Origin: Methanofollis fontis
GTDB lineage: Archaea > Halobacteriota > Methanomicrobia > Methanomicrobiales > Methanofollaceae
NCBI RefSeq assembly: GCF_004297185.1
Contig: NZ_PGCL01000002.1
Location: forward strand, 124,001-188,000
Direction: 5' to 3'
Length of the DNA: 64,000 nt
Both the position numbers and the translations under genes were made by a program. Below are positions 8,982 through 27,126 of the stretch, piece by piece. Position 1 is the first letter of the stretch, and each line of letters starts with the position of its first letter. The notes under the pieces were generated by a model, which saw only the letters and a program-made list of their open reading frames with translations, ran no database searches and was not told the origin of the DNA.

Positions 8982-11222
8982 ATGAAAATATTGAACAAAC
9001 GACCTCACATTGGATGGTGCACAATCGCCATTCTGGTCCTGATCATGGCGGCGTTCTGCATCGCTCCGGTAGCAGCGGACGATATCGGCGGGATCCAGAT
9101 GCCAGGCGCTAAGAACTTCGACCTGATCCTCTCCAATGGGCTGACGAAATACTTTAAGTTCGAGGGAGGGGGATTGAACGCCCTTCATATCACCACCGAC
9201 CCCGATGAACCCTACGGGCAGGTGACGACCACCGAGGAGCACTCCGGTGTTTTTTACCTGACCAACACCGGTGGCAGAGGTTTTGACGATGACATGATCC
9301 TGATGATTGCGGTCAACGGAACGATATCTGACGATTTTGCCGTACACATCAGGGCGAGCGGCTACCGCTGGACTCCGACGCCGGTCCTGAACCAGCCTCC
9401 AACAACCGATGAGATCGAATATATCGACGGGAGTTACGAAGGAACGATCACCAGGAGCGACTTTGCATACCGAGCGCAGACCTGGAAACCGGCAGGGGAC
9501 AACGCCCCGGGGAACTATCCTCTCTATTATGGACAGGACATGTCGGACACCTCCAATACGTTCCAGCTGGTGTTTGTGGACCTGAACACTGGCAACCTCG
9601 GTGCAAACGCCATGATCCCGGAGATGATCGACAACGGAGCGGTGAAGATCGAATACGAGATCGAAAACCTCCACGGGCTTGCATCCTTCAGCACCTATGG
9701 GTGGTGCAACCAGTCCAATCAGGGTCAGGGGATCTCCTGGACAAACCGTCTGTCCGGGGCGGGCAGCAGTGGTTATGCCGTGATGGGGGTTCCGGAATCC
9801 CCCGGGGATTTTTCCACCGGGGGTTCGGGCGGCACCACCGAGTCCGGATATCTCGGTCAGGAGAACAGTGCCGGATCGCCGTCGACCCTCAATGGCAGCG
9901 TCTCCCTGCTTCCGATCGCCGGGACGGTGGCCCCCCTCGAAGCCGGCAGTGCCGCACCCCTCCCTCTCCCGGCGACAGACGTGAACGGGACGGTGCGGGA
10001 GGCGACCCTCTACCTCTTTCTCTCCCATTCACAGCAGAAAGGGACCGGATATGGGACCGAACCATCTTTTTCGGTTTCAATCGGCGGCGTGGACCTTTCG
10101 CCCGAACGGACCCTGACCGACCGTGAGGGAGGGGACCATGCCCCGCTCTCCGCCACCCTTATCTATAAGACCGATCCGGCATCGATCGCAAGCGGCGGCA
10201 CCAACCTCATGGTCCGGAACACCGGGAGCGGCGATGCTGTCTTCACCTGTGATGGCGGCGCCCTTCTGCTCACTGTCGAAGACCCTGCGCTTCCGTCCAT
10301 CACCTATGCTGTTGCAGAATGCTGCGATGCCATCGGTGTGGACATCGCCGGAGGCGTCTTCGAGGGGGATGCAGTGACGCGGGTGTTCTTTGATGGTCCT
10401 GGCGATATGGACCGGATCAGTGACAGCCGCCTGCAGGTGATCAGCACCGCCGGGACAGATCACGATGCCTCCGCCGACACCATCGGCTTCAATGACCGCG
10501 AGTGGAGCGGCGTCTTCGTGCGACAGGGGGCGGTCATGAGTGCAGAACACCTGATCGCCGATGCCGTCTTCCCCACCTCGAACGCCGCATCGGCGGCTAC
10601 CGACGCCGGACCGGAGGCAGCGTTTGTCACCCGTCTCTTCCTCCTGGTCTATGCCGGCGGGGAGATGGACATATCTGAAACTGGTTCAGATTGGGGCGGA
10701 GAGGCAAGTGCACGTTCCTATCTCGTCGAAGACGCCGTGATCTCCAAGATCACGGTCCGATCCGCACCTGGTGGTGCACCGGCCAGCGTCAGTGTCGGGG
10801 GCACGGAACGTCCCGCGGGGGTGCCGGCGGCGGAAGGGACGGTGTATGCCTACAGGATGCTGAACCTGAATGGCGGATCCTCCGCCCCTCTGGATATGAC
10901 CGTCCGGTTTTATGTCCCCGCATCGTGGCTCTCGGAACAGGGGATCGATGCAGATGGAATATCCTTGCAGGAATACCGGGACGGGGCATGGCATTCCCTC
11001 AGGACAGAGCACCTCGGTCATGCGGACGGAGAGGAGGAGTATCTGGCCGACGCCGTCACCGCCTCCCTGCTGGCCATCGGTTCTGTCGCATCGGGGGGTT
11101 CGATCGGGGGGACAGCAACCGCAACGCCGCTCCCCGTAGATACGGACGTTCAGCAGTCTCCTATGGGTGTGATGGTGGCGCTCGGCGCCTGTGCTATCCT
11201 GATCCTGGCGAAACGACGCTGA
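8982..11222 (+). CDS. secreted surface protein with N-terminal surface domain and DUF3344-like region (746 aa)
   Basis: This is a cell-surface protein of unknown function. It has a signal peptide (about 1-35, ending PVAADD), one copy of the surface domain shared with its neighbours (about 40-275, with GGGLNALHITTDP and AVNGTI), and a DUF3344-like beta-rich region (about 320-560). A degenerate PGF-pre-PGF-like segment follows (about 575-715; VRFYVPASWLSEQG) and a terminal hydrophobic helix ending AKRR preceded by QQSP. The start at ATG 8982 rests on AGGAGAT just upstream; the in-frame TTG 8946 and ATG 8964 lack this spacing. Domain order resembles a shortened version of the two flanking giant proteins, so the three are probably paralogues by domain accretion (inference). 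Confidence 0.75.
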   Translation: MKILNKRPHIGWCTIAILVLIMAAFCIAPVAADDIGGIQMPGAKNFDLILSNGLTKYFKFEGGGLNALHITTDPDEPYGQVTTTEEHSGVFYLTNTGGRGFDDDMILMIAVNGTISDDFAVHIRASGYRWTPTPVLNQPPTTDEIEYIDGSYEGTITRSDFAYRAQTWKPAGDNAPGNYPLYYGQDMSDTSNTFQLVFVDLNTGNLGANAMIPEMIDNGAVKIEYEIENLHGLASFSTYGWCNQSNQGQGISWTNRLSGAGSSGYAVMGVPESPGDFSTGGSGGTTESGYLGQENSAGSPSTLNGSVSLLPIAGTVAPLEAGSAAPLPLPATDVNGTVREATLYLFLSHSQQKGTGYGTEPSFSVSIGGVDLSPERTLTDREGGDHAPLSATLIYKTDPASIASGGTNLMVRNTGSGDAVFTCDGGALLLTVEDPALPSITYAVAECCDAIGVDIAGGVFEGDAVTRVFFDGPGDMDRISDSRLQVISTAGTDHDASADTIGFNDREWSGVFVRQGAVMSAEHLIADAVFPTSNAASAATDAGPEAAFVTRLFLLVYAGGEMDISETGSDWGGEASARSYLVEDAVISKITVRSAPGGAPASVSVGGTERPAGVPAAEGTVYAYRMLNLNGGSSAPLDMTVRFYVPASWLSEQGIDADGISLQEYRDGAWHSLRTEHLGHADGEEEYLADAVTASLLAIGSVASGGSIGGTATATPLPVDTDVQQSPMGVMVALGACAILILAKRR

Positions 11223-11537
11223 TCGCTTTTTTCTGGATGCCATACCCGCGGATGGGTGGGGGTGGCAGACCTCATTTCTTCATTTTCTGTTGAAATTACC
11301 CTCCAGAATCCTCCGATTTCCCGGGTTGGCCAGAGTTCCTGTAAAATATTTATTATTAACTGCTCGACAAATGAGTAAATGTAAAATAAACTCGCTTACT
11401 TTTGTCGATTAACCAAACATTCTTATAGCGTCCTGAAGATAATACAATCCTGTTATCGATCGGGGCCAGTTTAACGGTGTTTATTGACTTTCTCGGTCCG
11501 GATCGTGCTTTTCAATCTCACTGACAGGTGACGCATG
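11223..11537 (+). promoter_or_regulatory. intergenic promoter region of the third surface protein
   Basis: No gene is seen here. The first part has a T-run after the stop (CGCTTTTTTCTGG). The 11340-11460 part is AT-rich with TATA-like elements (for example AAAATATTTATTATTA at about 11343-11358 and TTCTTATAGCG at about 11422). It ends in AGGTGA at 11526-11531, six bases before ATG 11538. This supports independent transcription of the next gene. Confidence 0.4.
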
Positions 11538-14500
11538 ATGAAAATAACCACACCCACCAGGGACGCCGGTGCAGGAGGGGTGGTGGCAGTTTTTGCCGCC
11601 CTTCTGCTGCTGATGGTCTGCACCATCGCACCGGTGTCTGCGGCGGAGCTTCCTGATGAAGATGTCATCTTCATCGAGGTCGCAAACCCGCCGGTACAGT
11701 ATGACTCCCCATTAAACGGCACATATATGATTTATTTTGCCGGGGGAGGCCTGAACGCACTCCATATCACCACCAACACCTCGGAATCTTTCGGGCAGGT
11801 CACCACCACGGATGAGCAGTCCGGCACCTTCTATGTCGCCGACACCGGCGGCAAGGGCGGGTCGCAGGACATCCTCCTGATGATCGCCGTGAACGGCACG
11901 ATTCCGGATGATTTCTCGGTGGAGATCAATGCAAGCGGTTACACCTGGGGCGAGATCATCGATTCCGATTATCACACCCTCACCGACGGTGACATCACCT
12001 ACGAAACCGGTGCGGTGGACCTGACCCTCACAAAGGACAACTTCACCTACGGTCCGCAGACCTGGAAGCCATACAAGGCCGGAGAACCCCTCCCTGTCCA
12101 TTATGGGCAGGACATGAGCGATGCCGACAACACCTTCCAGCTCCTGTTTGCCGACCTCCATGTGGGCGCTCTCAACCCGGCGAAGATCGATGCGATCGAC
12201 TCCCTGACCGATAATGGTCTGGCCAGAATCGAGTATTCGATCAGCAACCTGGGTGATGGCGAGATCGTTGCCTTCAATGCATACTCCTACCGTCTCTCCG
12301 CGGATTATACAGAGTTCCCGATCAAGGGCGGCAGCGGATGGACAAACGATGTTTCCGCCGCCAGCTCAAAGCCGAGCGGGTATGTCGTGAGTGCACCTGA
12401 GACCGACGTTCTCTTCAACGGCACGGTCAGTCTCGGTGAGGGGAATGTGACCGTGACCTCCTCACAGGGTAATGACTACTCGATCCCGGTGCGTACCCCT
12501 CTCGGAGCCCTTGACACGGTCGCGGATTGTGAAGGCTTCTCCTATGCGGTCTCCGACAAGAAATGGGACAGTATGGGCATCCTGCTCCTTGACGACATCG
12601 GTGCCTATCCCTATGTGAAGGGCGGGAACAGCTGGGTCTGCTACGTCAACGGCAACCTGCTCGACGACTACGGCAACCCGACCACGGAGGGCCTGAACGT
12701 CTATGCCCTTCAGGACGGGGATGTGGTTGACTACTACTATGGCGCCGACGGCGTGACGGCTGAGACGGCCGAAGCGGCGGTTCACATCGTCGTATCCACC
12801 AGTTCTGGACCCGATGTGCTCTACTCTGGAGTTCTCCCTCTCCCCGAAGGTAACGTGACCGTGACCTCCTCACAGGGTAATGACTACTCGATCCCGGTGC
12901 GTACCCCTCTCGGAGCCCTTGACGCCGCCGCACAGGCCGGCAATTTCACCTATGCGGTCACCGACAAGAAATGGGACAGCATGGGCATCCTGCTCCTTGA
13001 CGACATCGGTGCCTATCCCTATGTGAAGGGCGGGAACAGCTGGGTCTGCTACGTCAACGGCAACCTGCTCGACGACTACAGCAACCCGACCACCGAGGGC
13101 CTGAACGTCTATGCCCTTCAGGACGGAGATAAAATCGTCTATTGCTATGGTCCAGACGGCGTCACCGCCGAAACGGCCGAGGCGACCGTTGAGATCACCG
13201 CCAGTCTGACCGCTGCCGAGATCATCTACAGCGGCGAGCTCACTATCGGGGACGGCAATGTGACTGTGACCTCTACCGAGGGCAGCGACTATTCTATCCC
13301 GGTGCGCACGCCGCTCGGTGTTCTCGACACTGCCTCTACGGCAGGTAACTTCACCTATGCGGTCACCGACAAGAAGTGGGACAGCATGGGCATCCTGCTC
13401 CTCAACGACATCGGGGCATACCCCTATGTGAAGGGCGGGAACAGCTGGGTCTGCTACGTCAACGGCAACCTGCTCGACGACTACGGCAACCCGTCCACCG
13501 AGGGCCTGAACGTCTATGCCCTCGTAAACGGCGACAAGGTGGCCTATTATTACGGTGCTGACACTGCGAACGCCACCACTGCTGAGGCTGCCGTGCTGAT
13601 CACGGTCAAGACCGGAGCCGCACCCGGGGACTGGACCCTCGAGATGGGCGGGGCACAGAATGTCACGGTTACAAAGGCCTATTTCGAGAGTGGCATCACC
13701 TGCGGCCATGGCGCCTCATGGACCGACCCCGAAAATTCCGCGGTCTGGGAGGGCATGCCCCTCTGGTACCTCGTCGGCATGGTCGATGATGTCGAGTCCG
13801 GCGGCCATTACACCTTCAATGACGCCCTTGCAGCCGAGGGTTATTCGGTGAAGGTCACATCCAGCGACGGCTACTCGGTCAATATCCCGAGTGCCGAGAT
13901 GGCCCGCAACAATGGTTTCATTCTGGCAAACACCCTGAATGGATCGGTGCTGCCGGAGACGATCGGTGACAAGAACAAACCCTGCTGGCCGCTCCAGATC
14001 AAGGGGGCGAACGCCAGTGCCGGTCAGCTCGTCGGCGGCATCGCCTCGATCGAACTCGTCGGGCTGCCCGACCCCTCTGAGGGCTGGACCCTGAAGGTCT
14101 GCGGTGTGGTCAACGACACCATCACCCAGGAGGAGTTCGAGGAGTTCGGCTGCCACGGCGGCGTGAACTATACGGACAACCAGGGCATCGTCTGGACCGG
14201 TGTGCCCCTGTGGTACCTCGTGGGTGTCTCCGACAACCTGGAAACCACCGACCACTGGACCTTCGACGACGCGCTGGCCGCCACCAACTACACCATAAAG
14301 GTGATCGCAAGTGACGGATGGTCGCAGGAGTACGGCAGCGTTCAGGTCGCCGAGAGCAACGGCTACATCCTGGCGAACCTGATGGACGGTCAGCCGATCC
14401 CGGAGACCGACAGTTCGTACCCGCTCAAGCTCGTCGGTGACGACGTTCCCAAGAAGGTGAAGTCCGTCGCCGAGATCGACCTCGTCAACCTGATCCCGGC

Positions 14501-17078
14501 GCCCCCGGTAGAGGGCGAATGGAATCTCCAGCTGCTCGGGAAGATCGACTACACCTGCACCGAGGCCTTCTTCGAGGAGGCAGTCGCCTGTCCGCACCAC
14601 ACCGTGACCTGGACGAACCAGGAGACCGGTGAGACCTGGGGCGGCATTGCTCTCTGGGAACTCTGCGGCTTTGTGGACGACCGCATCCCCCATGGTTCGG
14701 ACGGATTCAATGATGGCGTAGCGACTGCGGGCTACACGGTGATCGTCACCGCCAGTGACGGCTACTCCAAGGAGTTCAGCAGCAAGGACCTCGCACGGAA
14801 CAACAACTATATCGTTGCAAACACGCTCAACGGAACCCCGCTCTCTCAGGAGGGCAGCAAGGCCCCCTGGCCATTGAGGCTGGTGGGATCGGATGTCTCC
14901 GGCAGCAACAGTGTCGGCGCCATCGCCTCGATCGAACTGACCGACTTCCAGAAGCCGACCGAGATCCCGACGATCCATGTCGTCAGCTATGATGCCGACG
15001 GCACCACGATCATCGACGAGATCACCGTCGACTACACCTGGATGGAGGAGAACCTCCCGGTCTACGGCGACGGCGAGACTGTCTATCACTTCCAGGGCCC
15101 GACCTTCGACCCCGATGACCTCTGGAACCCGGCTGAGGACAAAAACGCCATCCCGGGCAAGGTCTTCGGCGCCGTAATGGGCACCTCGATCAAGGACCTC
15201 TGTGACCTCGTCGGCGGCATGTCTGAGGGTACCGAGATTGTTCTCGAGGCGACCGACGGTTACAAGACAAAGATGAACTATACGAACATCTACTCGCCGC
15301 TCGATCGCCAGGGCACGGCCATCCTTGCCTGGTACAAGGCGGATGAGGGCTACATACCCGACTACGCAAACGGCTACCGCCTCTACTTCACCACACCCGA
15401 TACGATCTTTGGCAACGAGGACATGCGTCTCTGTCTCGATGAGGCCTACTGGCACTACTACTGGAACGAAGGCATCCAGTACCCCTCGGCGGCAGGCATC
15501 TCGGCCAGGAACGTTGCAACGGTGAAGATCTATCACCCCGAGAAGGACTGGAGCCTCTCCCTCGAAGGCACCATCTCCACCGATATGAGCAAACACTACT
15601 TCGAGGAGGGCATCGCCTGCGAGGCCAGTCACCGCGCCACCTACACGGACACCAAGGGTCGTGTGTGGGAGGGCATGCCCTTCTGGCGGATCATCGGATG
15701 GGTGGACGACGACAACGAACACTCCGGCGCCGCCTTCAACGACACCATGGCGGCGATGGGCTACACCATCCATGTGATTGCAGGCGACGGCTATGAGCAG
15801 ACCTTCACCAGTCAGGAGATCGCACGGAACAACAACTACATCCTTGCGAACAGCGTCGATGGTCACCACATCGATGCCGAAGACTCGGCATGGCCCCTGA
15901 AGCTGGTCGGCATCAATGTCTCCGGCAACGGTAAGGCGGTCAAGAACGTCGTCAGGATCGCCTTCATCCCGCCGAATGAAGGACAGGAAGAAGTCATCGA
16001 GACCGGAAACATCACGGCAGGGGACGAGAAGGACTTCCCGGTCAGCAACAGCACATTCTCGAACATCACCCTGAAGGCGGCGTCCGACATCAGTGGTGCC
16101 GAGTTCGCCGTCTCGACCGTGGCCAAACCGCCGGCATCGGAGGGCACACCCAACGCAACGGTCTACTCCTATGTGCACGTCGTCTATCCGTCGGCACAGG
16201 AGGCCATCGCTGAGGCGTTGATCACCTTCTCCATTCCGACCGACTGGCTCTCGGCCAACAACATCGGTGTTGGAGATGTGATCCTCTACCGCCGGCACAA
16301 CGATACCTGGACCGAACTCCAGACCACCTACGTCGAGACCCGTGACGGGGCGGCATGGTTCGAGGCAACAACGCCGGGCTTCTCCTACTTCGCCGTCGGC
16401 GGCGTGTCAATCCAGCCGACACCCACACCGACTCCCACTCCGACACCCGTCCCCTCATCGGGCGGCGGCGGCAGTTCCTCGGCCTCCGCAGTCTCGGGTT
16501 CGATCCCGGCAGGCGGATCGATGACCTTCAGCATTACGGACACTTCGATCGCCCGCATCACCGTCGATGCGAAGGACCAGATCTCCGGCATGCTCCTGAC
16601 GGTTCAGAAGGCCGGCCTTCCGACAGGCATGGCGATGCCGGACGGAGAGGTATATGAGATCGAGCAGATCACCGTATATCGTGCTGATTCTGCATCGATT
16701 GCCGGTGCTGAACTCACGTTCGCCGTCGAATCCTCATGGCTGACGGCACACGGTCTGACCACTGCGGACGTCGCACTCATGCATGAGGTCGACGGCGCCT
16801 GGCAGACACTTGAGACCACCTTTGTCGAGGAGCGGGACGGGAAGGCGTACTTCACCGCCAGAACTCCGGGCTTCTCGTACTTTGCCATCGTCGGCGTGAA
16901 GGGTGCCGCAATCCCGGCAGAAACCACCCCGGTTCCGGTGACCACGAGTGCCCCGGCAGCGGAGGCAACCACGGTGCCGGCGACCACGGCACCGGCCACC
17001 ACCCCGGCCCAGAGCCCGGTCTTCTGGGCTCTGCCCTTCATTGCCCTCGGGGCCCTCCTGATCCTCAGGAGAAAATGA
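11538..17078 (+). CDS. giant surface protein with three DUF4430-like and four molybdopterin-fold-like repeats (1846 aa)
   Basis: Domains in order: signal peptide (1-36); surface domain shared with the two genes upstream (~38-290); three tandem DUF4430/transcobalamin-C-like domains (~293-695; each with KKWDSMGILLL and GGNSWVCYVNG); three ~145-residue domains that look like the sulfite-oxidase molybdopterin-binding fold (~697-1140; WEGMPLWYLVG, DGYS, ARNN); one ~190-residue domain of the type in the downstream small proteins (~1143-1335; NLPVYGDG, DLCDLVGGM); a fourth molybdopterin-fold-like domain (~1338-1485); two PGF-pre-PGF domains; a PT-rich linker and a terminal hydrophobic anchor after AQSP. 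AGGTGA fits ATG 11538 better than ATG 11535. Each molybdopterin-like repeat keeps a Cys close to a His near its start. Whether it binds a cofactor is unknown. Confidence 0.8.
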   Translation: MKITTPTRDAGAGGVVAVFAALLLLMVCTIAPVSAAELPDEDVIFIEVANPPVQYDSPLNGTYMIYFAGGGLNALHITTNTSESFGQVTTTDEQSGTFYVADTGGKGGSQDILLMIAVNGTIPDDFSVEINASGYTWGEIIDSDYHTLTDGDITYETGAVDLTLTKDNFTYGPQTWKPYKAGEPLPVHYGQDMSDADNTFQLLFADLHVGALNPAKIDAIDSLTDNGLARIEYSISNLGDGEIVAFNAYSYRLSADYTEFPIKGGSGWTNDVSAASSKPSGYVVSAPETDVLFNGTVSLGEGNVTVTSSQGNDYSIPVRTPLGALDTVADCEGFSYAVSDKKWDSMGILLLDDIGAYPYVKGGNSWVCYVNGNLLDDYGNPTTEGLNVYALQDGDVVDYYYGADGVTAETAEAAVHIVVSTSSGPDVLYSGVLPLPEGNVTVTSSQGNDYSIPVRTPLGALDAAAQAGNFTYAVTDKKWDSMGILLLDDIGAYPYVKGGNSWVCYVNGNLLDDYSNPTTEGLNVYALQDGDKIVYCYGPDGVTAETAEATVEITASLTAAEIIYSGELTIGDGNVTVTSTEGSDYSIPVRTPLGVLDTASTAGNFTYAVTDKKWDSMGILLLNDIGAYPYVKGGNSWVCYVNGNLLDDYGNPSTEGLNVYALVNGDKVAYYYGADTANATTAEAAVLITVKTGAAPGDWTLEMGGAQNVTVTKAYFESGITCGHGASWTDPENSAVWEGMPLWYLVGMVDDVESGGHYTFNDALAAEGYSVKVTSSDGYSVNIPSAEMARNNGFILANTLNGSVLPETIGDKNKPCWPLQIKGANASAGQLVGGIASIELVGLPDPSEGWTLKVCGVVNDTITQEEFEEFGCHGGVNYTDNQGIVWTGVPLWYLVGVSDNLETTDHWTFDDALAATNYTIKVIASDGWSQEYGSVQVAESNGYILANLMDGQPIPETDSSYPLKLVGDDVPKKVKSVAEIDLVNLIPAPPVEGEWNLQLLGKIDYTCTEAFFEEAVACPHHTVTWTNQETGETWGGIALWELCGFVDDRIPHGSDGFNDGVATAGYTVIVTASDGYSKEFSSKDLARNNNYIVANTLNGTPLSQEGSKAPWPLRLVGSDVSGSNSVGAIASIELTDFQKPTEIPTIHVVSYDADGTTIIDEITVDYTWMEENLPVYGDGETVYHFQGPTFDPDDLWNPAEDKNAIPGKVFGAVMGTSIKDLCDLVGGMSEGTEIVLEATDGYKTKMNYTNIYSPLDRQGTAILAWYKADEGYIPDYANGYRLYFTTPDTIFGNEDMRLCLDEAYWHYYWNEGIQYPSAAGISARNVATVKIYHPEKDWSLSLEGTISTDMSKHYFEEGIACEASHRATYTDTKGRVWEGMPFWRIIGWVDDDNEHSGAAFNDTMAAMGYTIHVIAGDGYEQTFTSQEIARNNNYILANSVDGHHIDAEDSAWPLKLVGINVSGNGKAVKNVVRIAFIPPNEGQEEVIETGNITAGDEKDFPVSNSTFSNITLKAASDISGAEFAVSTVAKPPASEGTPNATVYSYVHVVYPSAQEAIAEALITFSIPTDWLSANNIGVGDVILYRRHNDTWTELQTTYVETRDGAAWFEATTPGFSYFAVGGVSIQPTPTPTPTPTPVPSSGGGGSSSASAVSGSIPAGGSMTFSITDTSIARITVDAKDQISGMLLTVQKAGLPTGMAMPDGEVYEIEQITVYRADSASIAGAELTFAVESSWLTAHGLTTADVALMHEVDGAWQTLETTFVEERDGKAYFTARTPGFSYFAIVGVKGAAIPAETTPVPVTTSAPAAEATTVPATTAPATTPAQSPVFWALPFIALGALLILRRK
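12409..13620 (+). repeat. three tandem DUF4430-like repeats, period 408 and 405 bp
   Basis: The motif GNDYSIPVRTPLG recurs at 408-base and then 405-base spacing (GSDYS in the third copy). Copies one and two are close to identical at DNA level over long stretches; copy three has diverged more. Each unit is about 136 codons and in frame, encoding one domain. Confidence 0.85.
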
Positions 17079-17111
17079 ACACACCATTTTTTTTGCTCTG
17101 AGCGTGACGCC

Positions 17112-17909
17112 ATGAGACAGGAACTCCTTTTTGTTGCGGTGATTGCTGCACTGGCTCTGGGTGTGATCATATCCCCCGCAGCAGCAACAACCACCGAGGT
17201 GCACATCGTCAGGTATGCACAGGACGGGACGACAATCCTGAACGAGACAACGGTGGACTACCGGTGGATGGAGACGAACCTCCCGGTCCTTGGTGACGGC
17301 ATGACACACTATTATCACCAGGGCCCCACCTTCAACGAATCTGATATCTGGGATGCGGGCGAGTATCAGAACGTGGAAACACGTGATTTCGGGGCGGTGC
17401 AGGGGACATCGCTGAGTGCCCTGTGTGATCTCGTCGGCGGGATGAACGCAGGTGACACCCTGCGCATCACGGCAGAAGACGGGTTCTACAAAAACATCTC
17501 GTACGAGACGGTGTATGGGACGGATCCGCGAAAGGGGACGCCAGGGCTTGCATGGTATGCGGGGGAGGAATCCTTTGAGGGCGATCCCCAGGGCACCGGA
17601 TATGTCCCGGCATATTACAACGGGCTACGCCTGATCTTCTTCGCCGACACCTCCTCCAACCCGTGGGGATGGCATGTCTTCGGCAACACCGATATGCGCG
17701 AGACGCTCCCTGAGGAGGAGTGGCACCTCTACAATGGCAAATGGCCCTCGACCAGCGGCCTATCCGTCAAGACGGTGAGCGACCTGGAGATCATCCCGTC
17801 ATCTGCAGGGAGTGCGGAGGCGCCTGCGACAACACCGGCACAGTCGGCACTCTCTCCAATCGTTATCATCACCGGACTCCTGGCGGTTGCCTGTTGTGCG
17901 AGGAGATGA
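17112..17909 (+). CDS. secreted, membrane-anchored protein with the NLPV-GDG domain (265 aa)
   Basis: First gene of a tight operon running to 24579. A signal peptide (1-25) is followed by one ~190-residue domain (30-225) with LNETTVDYRWME, NLPVLGDG, QGP, LCDLVGGM and FGNTDMR. The same domain occurs inside the giant protein just upstream and in two genes downstream. A Pro/Thr-containing linker and a terminal hydrophobic helix ending CCARR anchor it. The segment around LVGGMNAGD..AEDGF resembles the core of oxidoreductase molybdopterin-binding domains, so the whole domain is probably a distant relative (inference). No catalytic role can be assigned. The gap to the upstream gene contains a T8 run (about 17088-17096), a likely terminator. 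Confidence 0.75.
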   Translation: MRQELLFVAVIAALALGVIISPAAATTTEVHIVRYAQDGTTILNETTVDYRWMETNLPVLGDGMTHYYHQGPTFNESDIWDAGEYQNVETRDFGAVQGTSLSALCDLVGGMNAGDTLRITAEDGFYKNISYETVYGTDPRKGTPGLAWYAGEESFEGDPQGTGYVPAYYNGLRLIFFADTSSNPWGWHVFGNTDMRETLPEEEWHLYNGKWPSTSGLSVKTVSDLEIIPSSAGSAEAPATTPAQSALSPIVIITGLLAVACCARR

Positions 17910-17916
17910 AGCGGTG

Positions 17917-20900
17917 ATGTATCTGAGGTTTATCTGGGCTGTTCTGCTTGTTCTTCTGGTCTGTGGGGCTGCACCGGTAAGTGCGGCGACCACGTCGCTC
18001 ACCATCACCAAACTCGCCTCCGATGACACCACGGTGCTGAACGAGACGACTGTGACATGGACCTGGATGCGGGACAATCTCCCGGTCTATGGTGACGGGA
18101 TCACGGTCTACTACAACCAGGGTCCGGTCTTCGAGGGCGCATGGGATGACGTCCACCCGGACGAGCCCTACGACCCCTGGAACCCGACCGAGGACGTGAA
18201 CATCGAGTACAAGGATCACGGCGAGTTCAGGGGGACAAATGTCCTCGATCTCTGTGCTCTGGCTGGCGGGACATCAGGCGGCGACATGGTGACCATCCGG
18301 GCCACGGACGGCATGAGCAAGACCTGGCCCGCCGAATATGTCATTGATCCCGATCCCGGACAGGGACCGATGGTGATCGGATGGGACCACGGGAAGGATC
18401 TCGGCACGGTTGAGGAGGGTTTCACTCAGGGGATGCGCCTCTACTTCCTGGCCCAGACCACCAATGCGGCCGGTCAGCATGTCTGGGGCAACTGGGACAT
18501 GCATGAGGCATGGTCCGAGGACTACTGGTACTATTATAATGGCGAATATCCGTCGGCGTCAGGGAATTCGGTGTATTATGTCAGCGACATCGTCATCCAC
18601 AGCCAGATCGATCCCTCATCTGGTGACGGCGGTGGCGATGGTGACGGCGGATCACAGGGAGGGTTTATGGGATCGTCCCTGAATCAGGACCTGCACGGGA
18701 GCGTGAATGGCAGTATATACGTGATCAGGACGGAGGGTCCTGCATGCCGGATCGGCAGCGGGGAGTCCTGCACATTTTACCTGGACCTGACCGGGCTGAA
18801 CCGGACAGATGACGGGTATTTCTACCTCTTCGGGACGAACAACACGGACGCGAGAGGGGAAGAGGAGACAGGCATCGGTCTGCTCCTCGGCACGCAACCG
18901 GTGACGCCGTCGGCATATTATGCCGATGCCGGCGACACCTCTGCCGCTCCGGTGTCCGAGACCTGGCGGTACGACCTCGACGGAACGATTTCAGGCACAA
19001 ACCTATCGGTCATTGTCACAAACCGCGGCTCTCCGGGCAGTGCCGTGACGATGTATGGCGGCGTGCTCGTCGCACCGTCAGGGGGAGGAGAGAACCGGAC
19101 TGCATGGTGGATTGCAGAGGGTGCGGATACGGTGCAGGCCGACCCTGATCAGGGGGTATTTGAAGACGATGCCACGACGACTGCCACCTTCGCACAGATC
19201 ACCGGCATGGATGCGACTGCCCTCGGTGGGTTTGTTGCCGTCACGACCGGCGCCTCGGGGAATGATACACGGAGCAACAGGGTCACATTGAACAGCGGCG
19301 AATGGATCAACCTGCTCACCGCTGGCCCGGATGAGATCAGCATCGGGCGGGTCGATGTCACCCCCTACCTGCACACCGGGAAAAATACCGTTTCAATCTC
19401 GAGCATACCCTATAGCGAGCAGGGCGACTATCTGGAGAACAGGCTGGTCATCCTGACCGTGACCGAGACACCCCTGCCCCAGACCACTCCTTCCATGCCG
19501 ACCACCATGGCGGCGGAGAGCTTCGAACCCACGGAGGCGGCAACAGCAGCGCCCACCGGCGAGGCGCCATCAATCACACCGATAAAGAGTGGACCGGCGG
19601 AGAAGGGGGGAGGCATCTGGGATGGATTTTTCAGGCTGATCGGTCTTGAGAACGGCATATCTGATCTCCCCCTGATCGGACCCCTTTTAGGGGGCGGGGA
19701 TGAAGAGGAGAACAATGGGTCGGCCATTTCGGCACCGGTCGACTCTCATCCCGCAGCAGAGGCGACGATCATGCCTCCTTCCGGTACCGCTCCGGCGAAC
19801 GCCACCATCACGGTCATCACACACCCCGAGGGTGCGCAGGTGTTTCTGGATGGCGAGTATTCCGGCCGGATCACCCCCCTTCATCTGGAGGAGGTCCCGA
19901 CCGGTCATCACACTCTTGCCCTCCATCTGGCCGATTACGAGTCATATGAAACCTCATTTGAACTTGAGGAGGATACGACCGTGGCAGTTACACTCGATCC
20001 GCTCAACCCGAACCTTGACGAGGACGCCTTCAGCCTGAACCTGGCGGCGATGCAGGGTCCGGACAGGCGATCAGGGGGTATATTTGTTGAGGCAACGGAC
20101 GAGGGTGCGGAGATCTATATCGACGGGAAAAAGATCGATGGAACAACGCCTCAGGTGGTAAACGGCCTGAAAGAAGGGCTGCACCGTGTGAAGATCAAGA
20201 TGGGCTCCACGACCTATTCACCCTCCACACTGGAGGTCTGGGTCACGGCCGGAGCGATCACCCCGGTGTTCTTCAACCGCTTCGAGCGGGGGGCGTCCCG
20301 GACGATCACCATCGACGATCCCGGCTACAGTGGTGAGTATATCTCGGTGAATGGTGTCTATACCGGCAAGAAAGTGCCGGCAAAGGTGACTATCAATGGA
20401 ATTAATGCCTTTGCAGGGATTTTCCTTGAGGAAACATATCTCTCTGTCCCGATCTCGGACTTTGCCGAGGACGGGAGCACCACGACACTTGAGGACGGGA
20501 TCGAAACCGTGCAGTCGATCCGGATCGGATCTGATCCGCCGGGGGCGAGGATCTTCGTAGACGGGTTTGATACCGGCATTGCCACGCCCGGCGTCATCGA
20601 ACGGATCAGCCCCGGTTACCACAGGATCATGCTCAGCAAACCCGGTTTTTACCCGGAGGATACGGTGTTCCTCCTGCCCGAGCGGACGGATGAGCGGGAG
20701 ATCACCCTCATCCTGGAGCCCTATGCCCATGGATCCCTGTATGTGAACTCCACCCCACAGGGGGCGCGGATCTATCTCTATGGTCTGAACACGGGAGAGG
20801 TAACACCACACCTCTTCTGTGGCATGGCGCTCGGTGCCTATGATGTGAAGGTTGTTGGACGATCTGACTCACAGACGACCGAAGATGTGCTTGTCAGGCC

Positions 20901-20940
20901 CAATGAGGTAACGGTCTGTGAATGCAGGCTTGAGGAGTAG
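17917..20940 (+). CDS. secreted NLPV-GDG / DUF3344-like / PEGA-repeat protein (1007 aa)
   Basis: A signal peptide (1-23, ending PVSAA) precedes one NLPV-GDG domain (~25-225), a DUF3344-like beta-rich region (~250-510), a Pro/Thr linker, a hydrophobic Gly-rich segment (~575-600), and then PEGA domains at ~628-700, 710-780 and 868-1005 (HPEGAQVFLDG, DPPGARIFVDG, TPQGARIYLYG). PEGA domains are small surface beta-sandwiches of unknown ligand. There is no C-terminal anchor. ATG 17917 was chosen because GAGGAG lies about eleven bases upstream and a signal peptide begins there; frame is open further upstream inside the previous gene, whose stop is at 17907-17909. The next gene begins three bases after the stop, so they are co-transcribed. 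Confidence 0.75.
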   Translation: MYLRFIWAVLLVLLVCGAAPVSAATTSLTITKLASDDTTVLNETTVTWTWMRDNLPVYGDGITVYYNQGPVFEGAWDDVHPDEPYDPWNPTEDVNIEYKDHGEFRGTNVLDLCALAGGTSGGDMVTIRATDGMSKTWPAEYVIDPDPGQGPMVIGWDHGKDLGTVEEGFTQGMRLYFLAQTTNAAGQHVWGNWDMHEAWSEDYWYYYNGEYPSASGNSVYYVSDIVIHSQIDPSSGDGGGDGDGGSQGGFMGSSLNQDLHGSVNGSIYVIRTEGPACRIGSGESCTFYLDLTGLNRTDDGYFYLFGTNNTDARGEEETGIGLLLGTQPVTPSAYYADAGDTSAAPVSETWRYDLDGTISGTNLSVIVTNRGSPGSAVTMYGGVLVAPSGGGENRTAWWIAEGADTVQADPDQGVFEDDATTTATFAQITGMDATALGGFVAVTTGASGNDTRSNRVTLNSGEWINLLTAGPDEISIGRVDVTPYLHTGKNTVSISSIPYSEQGDYLENRLVILTVTETPLPQTTPSMPTTMAAESFEPTEAATAAPTGEAPSITPIKSGPAEKGGGIWDGFFRLIGLENGISDLPLIGPLLGGGDEEENNGSAISAPVDSHPAAEATIMPPSGTAPANATITVITHPEGAQVFLDGEYSGRITPLHLEEVPTGHHTLALHLADYESYETSFELEEDTTVAVTLDPLNPNLDEDAFSLNLAAMQGPDRRSGGIFVEATDEGAEIYIDGKKIDGTTPQVVNGLKEGLHRVKIKMGSTTYSPSTLEVWVTAGAITPVFFNRFERGASRTITIDDPGYSGEYISVNGVYTGKKVPAKVTINGINAFAGIFLEETYLSVPISDFAEDGSTTTLEDGIETVQSIRIGSDPPGARIFVDGFDTGIATPGVIERISPGYHRIMLSKPGFYPEDTVFLLPERTDEREITLILEPYAHGSLYVNSTPQGARIYLYGLNTGEVTPHLFCGMALGAYDVKVVGRSDSQTTEDVLVRPNEVTVCECRLEE

Positions 20941-20943
20941 CGT

Positions 20944-22170
20944 ATGAGCGGTTGTGCGAGGGTGACAGGTCTGGTTGTGTTCCTGCTGATCATACCGGTG
21001 GCGGTGATGGGTGCGGCAAACACCAGCGTCGTCTGGGGTCCGTATGTCACCGGCACTACCGGAACGGGGGCGATCGTCTCCTGGAAGACGGTGGACCCGA
21101 CGGTCGGGGCGGTGGAATATCTGCCGCCGGGGGTGAACGCCCCGCTGGTAGTGACGGATGGACGATGCACCGATCTCCACCATGTCAACCTGACCGATCT
21201 CACCCCCGGGACGTCGTATACCTATCAGGTCCGGGTGAACGATAGCCCGGGTCCGGATGGATCGTTTTCGACTTTCGGGAACGGACCGGTGAAATTTGTT
21301 GTCTATGCCGACACCCGCGCCCAGGTTCCCCTGTTTACCCAGATGGAACGCCACAGACTGGTTGCAGAACGGATTGCACAGGAGGATAACCTCTCTTTTG
21401 TGTTGCATTGCGGCGATTTTGTCACATTCGGGGACGATGAGGAGGAGTGGGACGATTTTTTTATGGCCGGCGCCCCGATGCTGGCCAGAACGACCATCAT
21501 GCCGGTTCTCGGCAACCATGAGGGTAACCGGTCCCTGTACTATGAGATCTTCTCGATGCCGGAGTGGTATTCCTTCACCGCCGGTGATGCGCATGTGGTC
21601 GTACTCGACTCAAATGACTGGGCGAGGGGACGCATGGATGAGCAGACGGACTGGATGATGCTGGACCTTGCGTCATCGAACGGCACACCGTTTGTTGCCT
21701 TCCACCACCCGCCCTTCTCGTCCAATGAACGGCTCTGGGGTGGGGACCGCTTCATCAGGGAGAACTGGGTGCCCATATTCGAAGAATTCGATGTTGGCAC
21801 TGTCTTTAATGGCCACACACATGCCTATGAACACTATTCCGTGAACGAAACCGACTATTTCGTAATACCGTGCGGCGGTGAGGAGTTCTTCAGCCTTTCC
21901 GAAAACAAGCCGGAGGGATTTGTGACGGCCCTCGAACACACCCTTGCATATCTGCGAGTCAGCGTGGACGACGAAAAGACACTGGTGGAGGTCGTTCCTG
22001 TTGCCTCGGTCTCTGAGGACAACACGGCAATCATCCACATGTATCCGCCGGGGGAGGTGTTTGAAACGGTCATGCTGCCATCCGAGAGATGCTGTATCGG
22101 ATCGTTTCCCCACCTGATACCTCCGCTCCCGCCGTTCTGGCTTCCTCTACTCCATGAGATGGTACCATGA
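20944..22170 (+). CDS. secreted purple-acid-phosphatase-like metallophosphoesterase (408 aa)
   Basis: A predicted extracellular two-metal phosphoesterase. A signal peptide (1-23) is followed by a fibronectin-III-like N-terminal domain (~25-110, with a Y-x-Y-Q-V strand near TSYTYQVRVN) and a calcineurin-type catalytic domain (~117-360). Visible metal-binding blocks are ADTR, CGDF, GNHEG, FHHPPF and GHTHAYEH, in the order known for purple acid phosphatases. The Tyr expected in the GDxxY block of iron-binding plant enzymes is not seen, so the metals are unknown. It starts 3 bases after the PEGA gene and overlaps the next gene by four bases (ATGA), so it belongs to the surface operon. The substrate (phosphate ester, glycan or teichoic-like phosphate) is unknown. 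Confidence 0.8.
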   Translation: MSGCARVTGLVVFLLIIPVAVMGAANTSVVWGPYVTGTTGTGAIVSWKTVDPTVGAVEYLPPGVNAPLVVTDGRCTDLHHVNLTDLTPGTSYTYQVRVNDSPGPDGSFSTFGNGPVKFVVYADTRAQVPLFTQMERHRLVAERIAQEDNLSFVLHCGDFVTFGDDEEEWDDFFMAGAPMLARTTIMPVLGNHEGNRSLYYEIFSMPEWYSFTAGDAHVVVLDSNDWARGRMDEQTDWMMLDLASSNGTPFVAFHHPPFSSNERLWGGDRFIRENWVPIFEEFDVGTVFNGHTHAYEHYSVNETDYFVIPCGGEEFFSLSENKPEGFVTALEHTLAYLRVSVDDEKTLVEVVPVASVSEDNTAIIHMYPPGEVFETVMLPSERCCIGSFPHLIPPLPPFWLPLLHEMVP

Positions 22171-23009
22171 CCCCGAACAGAGTCATTTTGATGCTGGCCC
22201 TGCTGTGCATGATTGCCGGTGGGGCCTGTGCGGCACCGACAACCTCGGTGCATGTGTCAGCGATTGCAGAGGACGGTACAACCGTCCTGAATGAGACGAC
22301 GGTCGATTATCATTGGATGGAGGAGAACCTCCCGGTGCTCGGGGATGGCGTGACGCATTATTACCACCAGGGTCCGGTGTTCACGGACGACAAGGAGGAG
22401 CAGTGGGACCGGAACGAGACCACGAACTTCAAGGACCACGGCGCAGTGAAGGCTACGGACCTTGCCGACATCTGTGATCTCGTCGGCGGGATGGCGCCCG
22501 GCGATGAGGTGATGGTCAAGGCAGGTGATGGCTACCATATCGAGTTCGATTATGCGAACGTGTATGGACCTGATCCGCGTCAGGGGCCGATCGGCATCTG
22601 CTGGTATAATGGCGAGGACGCAGCGGTCGGAGAGCGGCAGGGTGTCGGCTACCCGCCGGACTATCATGCAGGGATGCGTCTTGTCTTCTTTGCCGACACC
22701 TCGACCAATGCGGAGGGACTGCACGTCTTTGGCAACCAGGACATGCGCGAGTGCTTCCCTGCCGAGCGTCTCCATCTCTTCAACGACCTCTATCCCTCTA
22801 CCAATGGATATACGGTGAAGTGGATCGACGAGGTGCGGGTCTATAAGGGCGGCTACAGCGGTGCAAAGAATGTGCCGGTGAAGTCCCTCCAGGACCCTGC
22901 CGGGGCTGAACAACCGGTGAATGCAGAGAGCACACAGAGCGCAGGTCCGCTCTTCGGATTCCTGGTTGGACTGGGCGTTGCCGCTGGCGTATGGAGGACG
23001 AGGAGATGA
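22167..23009 (+). CDS. secreted, membrane-anchored protein with the NLPV-GDG domain (280 aa)
   Basis: A close paralogue of the gene at 17112: signal peptide (1-22), one NLPV-GDG domain (~26-225; LNETTVDYHWMEENLPV, YYHQGP, DICDLVGGM, FGNQDMRE), a linker and a terminal hydrophobic helix ending GVWRTRR. It overlaps both neighbours by four bases (ATGA), showing translational coupling. Presence of two near-copies in one operon suggests they act as partners or as alternative subunits of one surface complex (inference). The fold looks like a divergent molybdopterin-binding domain; no cofactor ligand can be proved. Confidence 0.75.
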   Translation: MTPNRVILMLALLCMIAGGACAAPTTSVHVSAIAEDGTTVLNETTVDYHWMEENLPVLGDGVTHYYHQGPVFTDDKEEQWDRNETTNFKDHGAVKATDLADICDLVGGMAPGDEVMVKAGDGYHIEFDYANVYGPDPRQGPIGICWYNGEDAAVGERQGVGYPPDYHAGMRLVFFADTSTNAEGLHVFGNQDMRECFPAERLHLFNDLYPSTNGYTVKWIDEVRVYKGGYSGAKNVPVKSLQDPAGAEQPVNAESTQSAGPLFGFLVGLGVAAGVWRTRR

Positions 23010-23581
23010 ACAGACGTTGTGCCCTGTTCCTGGCAGTATTTGCCCTCATCTGCGCGGCGGTCGCCTGCGGTTGTACCGGCACGCTCGATCCCGGGGTTCA
23101 GACCGGCGAGGAGGTGTCCTGGAACCTCACGATCTCTGACGGAACCACCGAGGAGATCCTCACCCTCTCAGAGATCAGAGAACTCCCTGCCTGGGAGGGA
23201 TACGGGCACGCGGTTTCCACGGTCGGGATCAAGTACGGTCCCTATACGGTCAGGGGCGTGGAACTGACGACGCTGCTCGATCGTATCGGCGGGTTTGACG
23301 AGGGTGATCAGGTCGGAATATCAGCACCTGACGGGTATTACTGGGTCTTTGACGACGAACAGATGGCCGGAAAGGGTTTTGTGACCTTTGATGCCGACCT
23401 CAAGGAGAAACCCTCGCCGCCCCTCGCGGTGGTGCTGGCCTATGAGTTTAACGGCACGGCAATTTCAGAAGAGGACGGCGGACCCCTCAGGATTGTTGTG
23501 GGCACCGATGAACCGGGCACCATCACCGAGGGGAGCGCCTGGGTGAAGTGGGTGGACCGGATCGAGGTGAAACGGTCATGA
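23006..23581 (+). CDS. lipoprotein with sulfite-oxidase/molybdopterin-binding-like domain (191 aa)
   Basis: The N-terminus MNRRCALFLAVFALICAAV is followed by ACGC, a lipobox-like cysteine, so the protein is probably lipid-anchored outside the cell. Residues ~40-190 form a short oxidoreductase molybdopterin-binding-like domain: LTLSEIRELPAW, YTVRGVELTTLLDRIGG, SAPDGYYWVF, GGPLRIVVG and VKWVDRIEV are the usual landmarks. The conserved cysteine that ligates molybdenum in catalytic members is not apparent, so a non-catalytic binding role is as likely as enzymatic activity. The start is the ATGA overlap at 23006 with GAGGACGAGGAG before it. It overlaps the solute-binding gene downstream in the same way. 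Confidence 0.75.
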   Translation: MNRRCALFLAVFALICAAVACGCTGTLDPGVQTGEEVSWNLTISDGTTEEILTLSEIRELPAWEGYGHAVSTVGIKYGPYTVRGVELTTLLDRIGGFDEGDQVGISAPDGYYWVFDDEQMAGKGFVTFDADLKEKPSPPLAVVLAYEFNGTAISEEDGGPLRIVVGTDEPGTITEGSAWVKWVDRIEVKRS

Positions 23582-24579
23582 GGGGCGCCTCTCTCCTTCT
23601 ACTCGCTCTTGCGGTTGTTTTCGTGCTTACAGCAGGGTGCACCGGCGAGGAGGAGCGAGTGGAGGTGAAGGTGATCCCTGCCGGAAGCCTTCTTCTCCCC
23701 CTGGAGAGCGTGGAGGCGGGATTCGAGGAGACCCATCCCGGTGTCGATATCCAGATCGAGGGGCATGGCAGCATCCAGTGCGTCAGGCAGGTGACCGATC
23801 TCCACCGCCCGGTTGATCTGGTGGTGGTCGCGGACGAGAACCTGATCCCTGACATGATGTACCGACCCCGGGAGGACGGGGGTGGCAACTACACTGATTC
23901 CTACACCTCCTTTGCCACCAACCGGATGGTGATCGCCTATACGGGGTCCAGTCGTTATGCCGACGAGATCACCACCGAAAACTGGTACGAGATCCTCTCC
24001 CGTCCTGATGTGGTCGTCGGCATCTCAAACCCGATGCTCGATGCTGCGGGATACCGCTCTTTGATGGTGACCACCCTTGCCGGCGACTATTATGGTGACG
24101 ACACGATCTTCGGGGACATTCTCGGCGATCATCTCCGCCCGAACGTGAGCGTGAGCATGGAGGGGAATGTCACCACCATCACGCTCCCAGAGGTGCTGAA
24201 ACCGGAAAGCGGGAAGGTCAGGATACGGGACGGGAGCATCTATCTCCTCTCGCTTCTTGATGCAGGCGGTGTGGACTATGCCCTTGAGTACCGGAGCGTG
24301 GCCGAAGGGCATGGTTTACAGTATATCCTGCTCCCGCCGGAGATTGATCTCTCATCTGCCGTCCATGCAGACAATTACCGGCGAGTCGTGGTCTCTCTCG
24401 GGTTCCAGAGGTTCAGTTCGATTGGGAGCGAACGCATCGGAGCACCGATCGTGTATGCGGCGACGGTCCCGAATGGTGCGCCGCACCCGGAGATCGCAAA
24501 TGAGTTTATGGGGTATATGATTGAAGAGTTCAGTAAGGGCTATGAGATGTGGCCCGATCCTGTAAAGGGGGGAAATTGA
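23578..24579 (+). CDS. wtpA: tungstate/molybdate-binding-like lipoprotein, WtpA family (333 aa)
   Basis: An extracellular solute-binding lipoprotein. The lipobox LTAGC is at residues ~17-21. The mature protein matches the WtpA/ModA-like oxyanion-binding family: PAGSLLLPLE, then a GHGSIQCVRQVTDL segment, LVVVADENLIPDMMY, then FATNRMVIAYT and AAGYRSLM. WtpA normally feeds tungstate to a WtpB permease and WtpC ATPase. Neither is next to it: the operon ends here with a T-rich region. It may use a distant transporter or act as an oxyanion store for the surface proteins upstream (inference). Known ligand residues could not be checked here. The start is the ATG of the ATGA overlap; an earlier in-frame ATG at 23548 would abolish the signal peptide. 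Confidence 0.75.
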   Translation: MRGASLLLLALAVVFVLTAGCTGEEERVEVKVIPAGSLLLPLESVEAGFEETHPGVDIQIEGHGSIQCVRQVTDLHRPVDLVVVADENLIPDMMYRPREDGGGNYTDSYTSFATNRMVIAYTGSSRYADEITTENWYEILSRPDVVVGISNPMLDAAGYRSLMVTTLAGDYYGDDTIFGDILGDHLRPNVSVSMEGNVTTITLPEVLKPESGKVRIRDGSIYLLSLLDAGGVDYALEYRSVAEGHGLQYILLPPEIDLSSAVHADNYRRVVVSLGFQRFSSIGSERIGAPIVYAATVPNGAPHPEIANEFMGYMIEEFSKGYEMWPDPVKGGN

Positions 24580-24716: not shown

Positions 24717-25913
24717 ATGAACAACGATATGCTCATCGCCGGAACGGAAAACCCCTCTGAATATTGTGGGGGTGCCCGTTATCTGAAAACCCTCCTTGAG
24801 AGTATCCATTCTATTTCCGGCATATCGTGCAGTTTTTTGACTGTTGAATGGGCTGTGTCTGTTGCTGCCGGGACTCCCTTCTTCTGCACTGAATGCTGTC
24901 AGTATCGTCAGGATACATCTGGTAGATCGTGCCGGAAACCTATGAAAAATACTGGTATGGCTGATGAACCTGTTATGTTCCGGTGCAGCGCCGGTTTCTG
25001 GCATGTCGCCGCTCCGGTGCTGTTTGATGGTTGTCATCGTGCGACGCTTCTGGCAGGGCCGTTTCTGTCTGCTGAGGGGGATGATATGCGCGGTTCGGCT
25101 TTGCCGCAGGCCGATTCCTCCGTTCCGGTGTCAGATCCGGTTGTCGATGTCGCTAAGGGCGTGCCGGTGCTGCGGCAGGAGGTGGCGAGAGGTGTTCTCG
25201 CCCTCATTTCGTCCAGTGCAGAACTCCTCTCGATGTATGCCACCAGCAATCTCCGACGTATGCGGGAGGCAGAGGAGAGGAGAACTACAGAGATCCGTCT
25301 TCATCAGTCCGAGAATCTCTATCGGACGATTTTTGAGCATAGCGGGACCGCCATGGCGATCGTTCGCGGTGACGGTTCGATCATCTGGGCGAATATCTGT
25401 TTTTCAAACCTCTTCATGATCGATCAGGACGCCCTCTGTGGGGTGTCGTGGACGATCTTCGCCTCTCCTGAAGAGCAGGTGAGGCTCGAACAGATTCTCA
25501 GGCAACAGGAGGATGAACCGACCTTTACGGTTCAGAACTATGAGACCACGCTCAGCAGTGTCGAAGGGCGGGAGATCCGGGCGATCCTGAATGTCGGGAT
25601 GATCCCGCAGAGCGATCGCTATGTCATCTCCCTCCTTGACGTAACAGAAAGGCGGCATCTTGAAGAGGTTCGTGCGTCGGCGTTCGATCAGATCGAGCGG
25701 AATTTTACGCAGCTAGCAGTTCTCAACGACCAGATCAGAAACCCGCTGGCTGCCATCGTTGGTCTGGCAGGGATGAGCGAGAGTGAGGATGCCGGGGATA
25801 TCCTCAGGCATGCGATGACCATCAACGCCATTGTCACACACCTCGATGAACGATGGCTTGAATCCGAGACTGTCCGAAAATACCTCCGCAAACACCATCA
25901 TATTGAGACGTGA
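24717..25913 (+). CDS. PocR-PAS sensor protein with a truncated kinase H-box region, no ATPase domain (398 aa)
   Basis: A cytoplasmic sensor. Residues ~18-185 form a PocR ligand-binding domain (FCTECCQYRQ and the later HVAAPVLFDG). Residues ~195-315 form a PAS domain (YRTIFEHSGTAMAIV to LLDVTERR). The C-terminus (~320-398) has a dimerisation-like segment with NPLAAIVGLA and ends WLESETVRKYLRKHH. The HATPase domain is missing and the place of the phospho-His is taken by NQIRNP-like sequence (DQIRNP). Such tail-only sensors recur in methanogens (family knowledge), probably passing a signal by protein contact. It stands alone between the surface operon and the decayed region, so its partner is unknown. 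Confidence 0.75.
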   Translation: MNNDMLIAGTENPSEYCGGARYLKTLLESIHSISGISCSFLTVEWAVSVAAGTPFFCTECCQYRQDTSGRSCRKPMKNTGMADEPVMFRCSAGFWHVAAPVLFDGCHRATLLAGPFLSAEGDDMRGSALPQADSSVPVSDPVVDVAKGVPVLRQEVARGVLALISSSAELLSMYATSNLRRMREAEERRTTEIRLHQSENLYRTIFEHSGTAMAIVRGDGSIIWANICFSNLFMIDQDALCGVSWTIFASPEEQVRLEQILRQQEDEPTFTVQNYETTLSSVEGREIRAILNVGMIPQSDRYVISLLDVTERRHLEEVRASAFDQIERNFTQLAVLNDQIRNPLAAIVGLAGMSESEDAGDILRHAMTINAIVTHLDERWLESETVRKYLRKHHHIET

Positions 25914-26229: not shown

Positions 26230-26703
26230 ATGACGATGGGCAGCCCTGGAGCAGATCTTTTCGGGCCGGAAACCGGCCGCCTCCATGTCCTCGACCGGGA
26301 GGAGAGGGCTCGCGTTCTCCGGGAGATCGGGGATGTCATGGGTCGGTTCCCCGTAGTCTCTCTGGGTTATGTCTTCCGTTCGTTTCTCCGGGGGCCGTTT
26401 CATGACCTCGATTGTGCAGTTCTTCTCTCTGGATCCCACTCGCCGTACGAGGCGATGAAGATCGCCCGGCGTATCGAGGGGGAGATCGAGCGGGCGATCG
26501 GCTACCTCTGCGTCGTCGAGTGCCGGGTCCTCAACGATGCCCCGGTTTCGTTTGCCTATGAGGTGATCAGGGCCGGGCGTGCGGTGTATGTGCGTGAGCC
26601 TGCTGTGCGGATCAGGTATGAAGCAGGTCTGATCTCGGCCTGGCAGGACTATCGAGAGACGCTGGTCTGGTTCAACCGGCGGTACCTGGGGGGATCGCCG
26701 TGA
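26230..26703 (+). CDS. MNT-type minimal nucleotidyltransferase, antitoxin-like (157 aa)
   Basis: A small nucleotidyltransferase-fold protein (family knowledge: MNT partners of HEPN toxins AMPylate the HEPN protein and neutralise it). The catalytic DxD is present as DLD (HDLDCAVLL, about residues 57-65), but the usual GSxxxG loop is changed to GYVFRSFLRG, so activity is doubtful. Residues 75-110 carry the helix and IERAIG region of the family. The stop codon overlaps the ATG of the HEPN gene by one base (TGATG), the usual arrangement. An alternative start is ATG 26236. Confidence 0.7.
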   Translation: MTMGSPGADLFGPETGRLHVLDREERARVLREIGDVMGRFPVVSLGYVFRSFLRGPFHDLDCAVLLSGSHSPYEAMKIARRIEGEIERAIGYLCVVECRVLNDAPVSFAYEVIRAGRAVYVREPAVRIRYEAGLISAWQDYRETLVWFNRRYLGGSP

Positions 26704-27126
26704 TGTTCCAGGATGAAGAGGGGATCATCGCTCATCTCAGGGAACTGGATGAGGCCCTTTCTGACTGGGAGCTACCAGACTGTTTCGCATCAGGGGTTTC
26801 TGGAGAACCGGGATACAAGAAATATGGTACTCCATGCTCTCCTGATCGCCATTCAGGCAACGATTGATATTGCCAATCACCTGATTGCAGGAGAGGATCT
26901 CAGGCGGCCTTCGACCTATCGGGAGAGTTTTGTCATTCTCTCGGAGCGGGGAGTTCTCACGCCCGAACTCGGGGAGGCGATGGGCGATCTGGCCGGGTTT
27001 CGGAATGTGCTCGTCCATATCTACTGGCGCCTCAACCTGGAGGAGGTATATCGGGTTCTGCAGGACGATCTCCCGGTGGTCCGTGAGTTTGAGGCTGTGG
27101 TGAAGGGGTACCTGAAGGAGCGTTGA
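26703..27126 (+). pseudogene. HEPN-domain (HepT/DUF86) toxin gene interrupted by a frameshift
   Basis: Reading from ATG 26703 gives DEEGIIAHLRELDEALSDWE, the normal HepT N-terminus, but the frame then leaves the family. From about 26773 the next frame continues YQTVSHQGFLENRDT and runs to 27126 with the full HEPN helix bundle and the catalytic motif RNVLVHIY (R-x4-H-x-Y). One extra base, or two missing, near 26772 explains this. Either the gene is inactivated, or a shorter protein starts at ATG 26713 or later, or the base is a sequencing error. A T-rich run follows the stop (27132-27150). Confidence 0.75.

Follow-up and report, generated by a model that had tools for sequence, protein, structure and literature searches.

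What is a run of seven genes for exported proteins, ending in a WtpA-family tungstate/molybdate-binding lipoprotein, doing at the surface of a methanogen? In hydrogenotrophic methanogens and ANME archaea, the reduction of CO2 depends on tungsten or molybdenum enzymes. The genes lie in a 64,000-nucleotide stretch of the Methanofollis fontis genome (here called the window; G000:C2:124001-188000), which is 2.36 Mb in size and carries two mcrA genes, the mark of an archaeon with methyl-coenzyme M reductase. The evidence assembled below suggests that they encode a previously undescribed module at the cell surface, with a role in capturing tungsten or molybdenum. Within the literature searched, nothing was found on extracellular molybdenum cofactor (Moco) scavenging or on this cluster, and no report of surface machinery that assists in acquiring tungsten or molybdenum.

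Organization of the Locus

The reading frames of all seven genes between 11538 and 24579 are real. Their starts were refined to ATG 17917 for g3, ATG 23006 for g6 and ATG 23578 for g7. The genes are as follows:

11538-17078, + strand: g1, an exported giant of 1846 aa
17112-17909, + strand: g2, exported, a single g5-family domain and a C-terminal membrane segment
17917-20940, + strand: g3, exported, with a g5-family domain, DUF3344 and PEGA repeats
20944-22170, + strand: g4, an exported metallophosphoesterase that resembles purple acid phosphatases and recurs in the cluster
22167-23009, + strand: g5, core gene 1, exported, with a C-terminal membrane anchor; unnamed domain family with a fold like that of sulfite oxidase (SUOX) and PruR
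23006-23581, + strand: g6, core gene 2, a lipoprotein with an Oxidored_molyb (SUOX-type) domain
23578-24579, + strand: g7 (WtpA*), core gene 3, a tungstate/molybdate-binding lipoprotein of the WtpA family, from a separate clade

The first-pass annotation had described the genes from 17112 to 24579 as joined by short gaps or four-base overlaps, and this holds with the refined starts: g2 and g3 are 7 bp apart, g3 and g4 are 3 bp apart, and the g4/g5, g5/g6 and g6/g7 joints are 4-bp overlaps of the ATGA type. The same annotation had assigned secretion signals to the giant and to four of the six downstream genes. The giant is exported, but the downstream count was too low, as a hydrophobic N-terminal export segment is present in all six and thus in seven of seven proteins. 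The products of g1, g2 and g5 terminate in a membrane segment and then basic residues, while g6 and g7 carry a lipobox (LTAGC in g7).

The family scan placed Oxidored_molyb in g1 and g6, PEGA and DUF3344 in g3, a metallophosphoesterase in g4 and a solute-binding protein in g7. The giant g1 has four SUOX-type domains and one that is g5-like, and g6 also has a SUOX-type domain; domains of the g5 family make up g2 and g5 and the N-terminal part of g3. One or the other is therefore present in five of the seven genes (g1, g2, g3, g5 and g6).

Several features flank the cluster. Upstream, at 507-11222, are genes for two exported proteins, a NosD/beta-helix/PKD/Big_2 giant and a DUF3344 protein. Both have the N-terminal GGGLNALHIT domain that is also found in g1, and within the genus both are found repeatedly ahead of the cluster. 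An 8-bp inverted repeat (TCGACAAA/TTTGTCGA) precedes g1 at 11364-11408. It was considered as a shared operator and rejected, being found neither at the corresponding site in relatives nor at wtpABC. Directly after g7, at 24717-25913, lies a PocR/PAS sensor-type gene, which four loci from this genus retain and which is a possible regulator of the cluster. A nucleotidyltransferase and HepT-like pair at 26230-27126 is a candidate toxin-antitoxin system of the MntA-HepT type. The GEGP diheme family was also considered and set aside, with weak matches and no paper found in the literature search.

Conservation of the Three-Gene Core

A tblastn comparison covered 20 loci from the order plus three in named genomes (Methanosarcinales UBA261, ANME-2c and a contig binned as Omnitrophota). 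The order g5-g6-g7 is identical in all of them. Of 120 genomes sampled from the order, 49 contain g6, and in 48 of these the gene immediately downstream, on the same strand, encodes a WtpA, far beyond chance. The neighborhood that had been proposed as a unit is thus conserved. Beyond the order, g6 is present in six genomes, each of which has it together with WtpA* and with g5, whole or in part; the trio is found in other families of the phylum, including ANME-2c. Genes of the g1, g2/g3 and phosphoesterase types recur around it. No Moco-synthesis genes stood out beside the trio when the open reading frames of seven loci were inspected by eye.

Some loci are irregular. A single TGA interrupts the g6 frame of locus L065 (G109:C65:10478-11029), and the WtpA* gene of L050 is split over two frames; each may reflect decay or sequencing error. 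The trio on the Omnitrophota-binned contig (L034, 3.3 kb) is probably on a misbinned archaeal contig, because its WtpA groups with that of ANME-2c.

Association with the WtpBC Importer

It had been noted that no permease or ATPase gene stands beside g7. This is true in the window, where a complete and separate wtpABC lies about 75 kb away (G000:C2:71-74 kb), but it is not general. In eleven relatives, wtpB is a same-strand neighbor of the trio, with wtpC seen in all but G264 and G268. The wtpB-wtpC pair directly follows WtpA* in G005, G008, G035, G039, G066 and G094, and the arrangement is identical or nearly so in two more genomes, G373 and G395, as well as in three from beyond the order, G195, G264 and G268. 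The best models for these trio-adjacent proteins are WtpB and WtpC, with scores below the NCBIfam equivalog cut-offs in the three loci tested. An orphan WtpA without a transporter was rejected as a general property of the cluster, given these wtpBC genes in relatives.

In four further genomes (G004, G010, G022 and G093), wtpBC has no adjacent wtpA, and WtpA* is the only WtpA above the cut-off. A possible wtpA remnant of 35 residues, a weak match, lies by wtpBC in G022. Across the 120 sampled genomes, wtpB is present in 46 of the 49 genomes with g6 versus 20 of the 71 without it (Fisher p = 1e-13, uncorrected for kinship). At two loci, a TupA-WtpA fusion, encoded as a single lipoprotein, lies just upstream of the trio (L055:10904-12838 and L131:9050-11008).

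Taken together, the adjoining wtpBC genes, the genomes whose wtpBC lacks its own wtpA, the association of g6 with wtpB and the TupA-WtpA fusions make tungstate/molybdate import of the WtpBC type the best-supported context for the trio. The earlier suggestion of a surface capture role tied to tungsten or molybdenum is strongly reinforced by this linkage. The trio is not needed for import itself and is in that sense accessory, because several genomes of the order have WtpABC without it, among them G003 and G052 from this genus.

A Second WtpA

The WtpA-like identity proposed for g7 is genuine according to the curated model TIGR03730, against which g7 scores 325.9 bits (cut-off 242.75). Its best PDB matches are the WtpA/ModA proteins MA_0280 and AF_0094, with MJ1186 also among the closest solved relatives. 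In the tree, the WtpA* sequences form a group of their own (support 100/100), apart from the WtpAs that adjoin wtpBC.

WtpA* keeps S42, S70, D153, E235 and Y236 (AF_0094 pocket positions), as do the ABC-linked WtpAs of the order. The two carboxylates of the AF_0094 oxyanion pocket are presumably Asp153 and Glu218. The latter position is Ser in WtpA* and was considered as a sign of a changed ligand; this argument was dropped because the ABC-linked WtpAs of the order carry Ser there too, and Glu at 235 is common to both. Near the pocket, WtpA* has invariant residues that distinguish it from ABC-linked WtpA, namely GHGSIQ, MLDA in place of N-D-P and DGS in place of PKS. As the clade has its own invariant residues, its specificity, affinity or docking may have changed.

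This raises the alternative that the module does work with WtpBC, or with a WtpBC-like importer, while WtpA* has shifted to another oxyanion that the SUOX-fold proteins bind as well. The separate clade and its invariant substitutions around the pocket are consistent with such a shift, and members of the genus keep a complete canonical wtpABC, so that another protein for tungstate would be redundant. Nonetheless, a score well above the WtpA cut-off, the retained pocket residues, the four genomes that offer wtpBC no WtpA but WtpA* and the TupA-WtpA fusions adjoining WtpA* loci all argue against this, and another oxyanion is regarded as rather unlikely.

Folds of g5 and g2

The products of g2 and g5 are 53% identical. 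No family could be assigned to either, and 60 relatives scanned singly gave none, anchor motifs aside. The g5 family has the invariant motif GDG..YY.QGP.F, which includes HQGP in g5 orthologues. An AlphaFold2 model of g5 built with 60 homologues reached a pLDDT of 88 and a pTM of 0.80. In Foldseek searches against the PDB, this model first matched PruR pterin-binding proteins (7kom, E 9e-4; 7rkb, a neopterin complex), followed by SorA and tungsten-containing YedY/MsrP structures. Profile comparison linked g5 to g6 with 97.7% probability over 41 columns. Searching the PDB with a profile of the g5 alignment gave no real match, and a viral fold library gave none. Together with the g1 fragment described below, the g5 model bears out the SUOX-like fold of the first-pass annotation, although whole-query TM-scores are modest (0.30-0.39). 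The NEAT-type fold, also raised there, found no counterpart, as no NEAT structure is among the matches listed for either model.

PruR proteins share the SUOX fold and are exported, lack the Mo-ligating cysteine, bind small reduced pterins and signal to membrane regulators; the site is considered too small for full Moco, and that of Agrobacterium tumefaciens PruR involves Trp160/Tyr104 (PMC13259868). With PruR heading the fold matches of g5, it could be argued that g5 and g6 are pterin receptors of a signaling system, with WtpA* as a sensor co-receptor and not part of a transporter. The PocR/PAS gene that follows g7 in the window and in the four loci of the genus would fit this role. However, its product shows no clear membrane-spanning or extracellular portion. 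No DcpA/DTB regulator is linked to the trio in the loci examined, and in those outside the genus there is no linked DcpA- or kinase-type gene; it is wtpBC that is linked instead. A signaling role is accordingly considered improbable.

g6, the Giant Protein g1 and the Question of Catalysis

The product of g6 matches PF00174 with 44 bits (cut-off 24), and all 29 of its relatives match Oxidored_molyb. The lipobox cysteine is the sole conserved cysteine, and the Mo-ligating cysteine is absent.

The giant g1 matches PF00174 (49 bits) and TIGR04213, and its N-terminal domain is shared with the upstream genes of the window. Its inner domains, all on the + strand, are arranged as follows:

about 12408-13607, + strand: three DUF4430-like repeats
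13632-14084, 14085-14519, 14520-14963 and 15549-15977, + strand: four SUOX/OMPB domains
14964-15548, + strand: one g5-like domain

The protein ends in a PGF-pre-PGF region, then a C-terminal membrane segment plus RRK. The likeness of the repeats to DUF4430, a transcobalamin-like C-terminal domain, comes from weak Pfam hits, seen in 7 of the 20 relatives and not significant in the g1 of the window. A modeled fragment comprising one repeat and one OMPB domain (pLDDT 87) gave 35 PDB matches in Foldseek with E ≤ 0.001, every one a SUOX-family enzyme or PruR. Profile comparison of g6 with g1 gave 87% probability.

It had been suggested that these proteins perform extracellular redox chemistry, as molybdo- or tungstoenzymes. 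Membership in the Oxidored_molyb family and a cysteine near the expected Mo-ligand position in many g1 domains speak for this. Against it, g6 lacks such a cysteine, and that of g1 is missing in several relatives and so is not conserved. Folded Moco enzymes are normally exported via the Tat pathway, whereas the signals of the exported SUOX-fold proteins are of the Sec type, with no Tat-type signals found among them; two arginines with two hydrophobic residues one position on occur in none of 29 g6 and one of 29 g5 N-termini. Redox chemistry is thus unsupported and a catalytic identity was rejected as very unlikely; on these grounds, the SUOX-fold proteins of g1 and g6 are probably binders, whose ligand may be an oxyanion, a pterin or a metal-pterin cofactor.

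Proposed Function of the Cluster

A chance neighborhood of surface or adhesion proteins and an orphan WtpA, which the nearby PGF-type anchoring, PKD/NosD giants and PEGA proteins might suggest, is largely contradicted by synteny, given the constant order of the trio across families and its linkage to wtpBC in eleven genomes, and is highly improbable.

The current proposal, which is held to be probable, is that the cluster forms a surface accessory module serving a tungstate/molybdate ABC importer of the WtpBC type, with SUOX/PruR-fold binders handing metal to WtpA*. The membrane-anchored g5 and the lipoprotein g6 would be exported SUOX/PruR folds that are no longer molybdoenzymes, and the giant g1 and the g2/g3 paralogues would probably share their role. 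The cofactor pocket of the fold would bind tungsten or molybdenum species outside the cell, either as free oxyanion or as pterin-bound metal. From family, fold and context, it appears that g5, g6 and g1 may capture these species and pass them to WtpA*, a second, lineage-specific substrate-binding lipoprotein. WtpA* would bind tungstate or molybdate and dock on WtpBC, encoded about 75 kb away in the genome of the window and directly after the trio in relatives. It may be speculated that the g4 phosphoesterase processes a phosphorylated ligand.

A more specific version is cofactor salvage, whereby the SUOX/PruR folds take up molybdopterin, tungstopterin or pterin-bound metal that other cells have released, the phosphoesterase trims it, and tungsten or molybdenum enters via WtpA* and WtpBC. 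Such salvage would explain the folds, the phosphoesterase and the importer together. It is a tentative reading, less expected than not by a wide measure; if true, it would be the tungsten and molybdenum counterpart of heme or siderophore piracy for iron.

The general proposal of an accessory capture module provides a concrete, testable candidate in which cofactor-fold surface proteins are coupled to a second WtpA. It also gives a genomic context to the unnamed g5 domain family, none of whose 60 scanned members has a Pfam family. Beyond the signaling known from PruR, it suggests a further use for SUOX folds that have lost their enzymatic role.

Comparison with Known Systems

With the sulfite oxidase/MsrP family (PF00174), the cluster has in common the Pfam family of g6 and g1 and the fold of the g1 fragment and g5. 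It differs in lacking the conserved Mo cysteine, in Sec-type export and in the stringing of multiple domains on one giant surface protein. Like PruR of the PruA-PruR-DcpA pathway, g5 and g6 are small, exported proteins with a SUOX-type fold and no Mo-ligating cysteine, but they are archaeal and tied to WtpA and an importer. As in the WtpABC importer, g7 is a lipoprotein above the WtpA cut-off, with its pocket residues kept and with wtpB and wtpC adjoining in relatives. Unlike canonical WtpA, it belongs to a separate clade with its own invariant residues, has no adjoining wtpBC in the window, and is always coupled to g6 and nearly always to g5.
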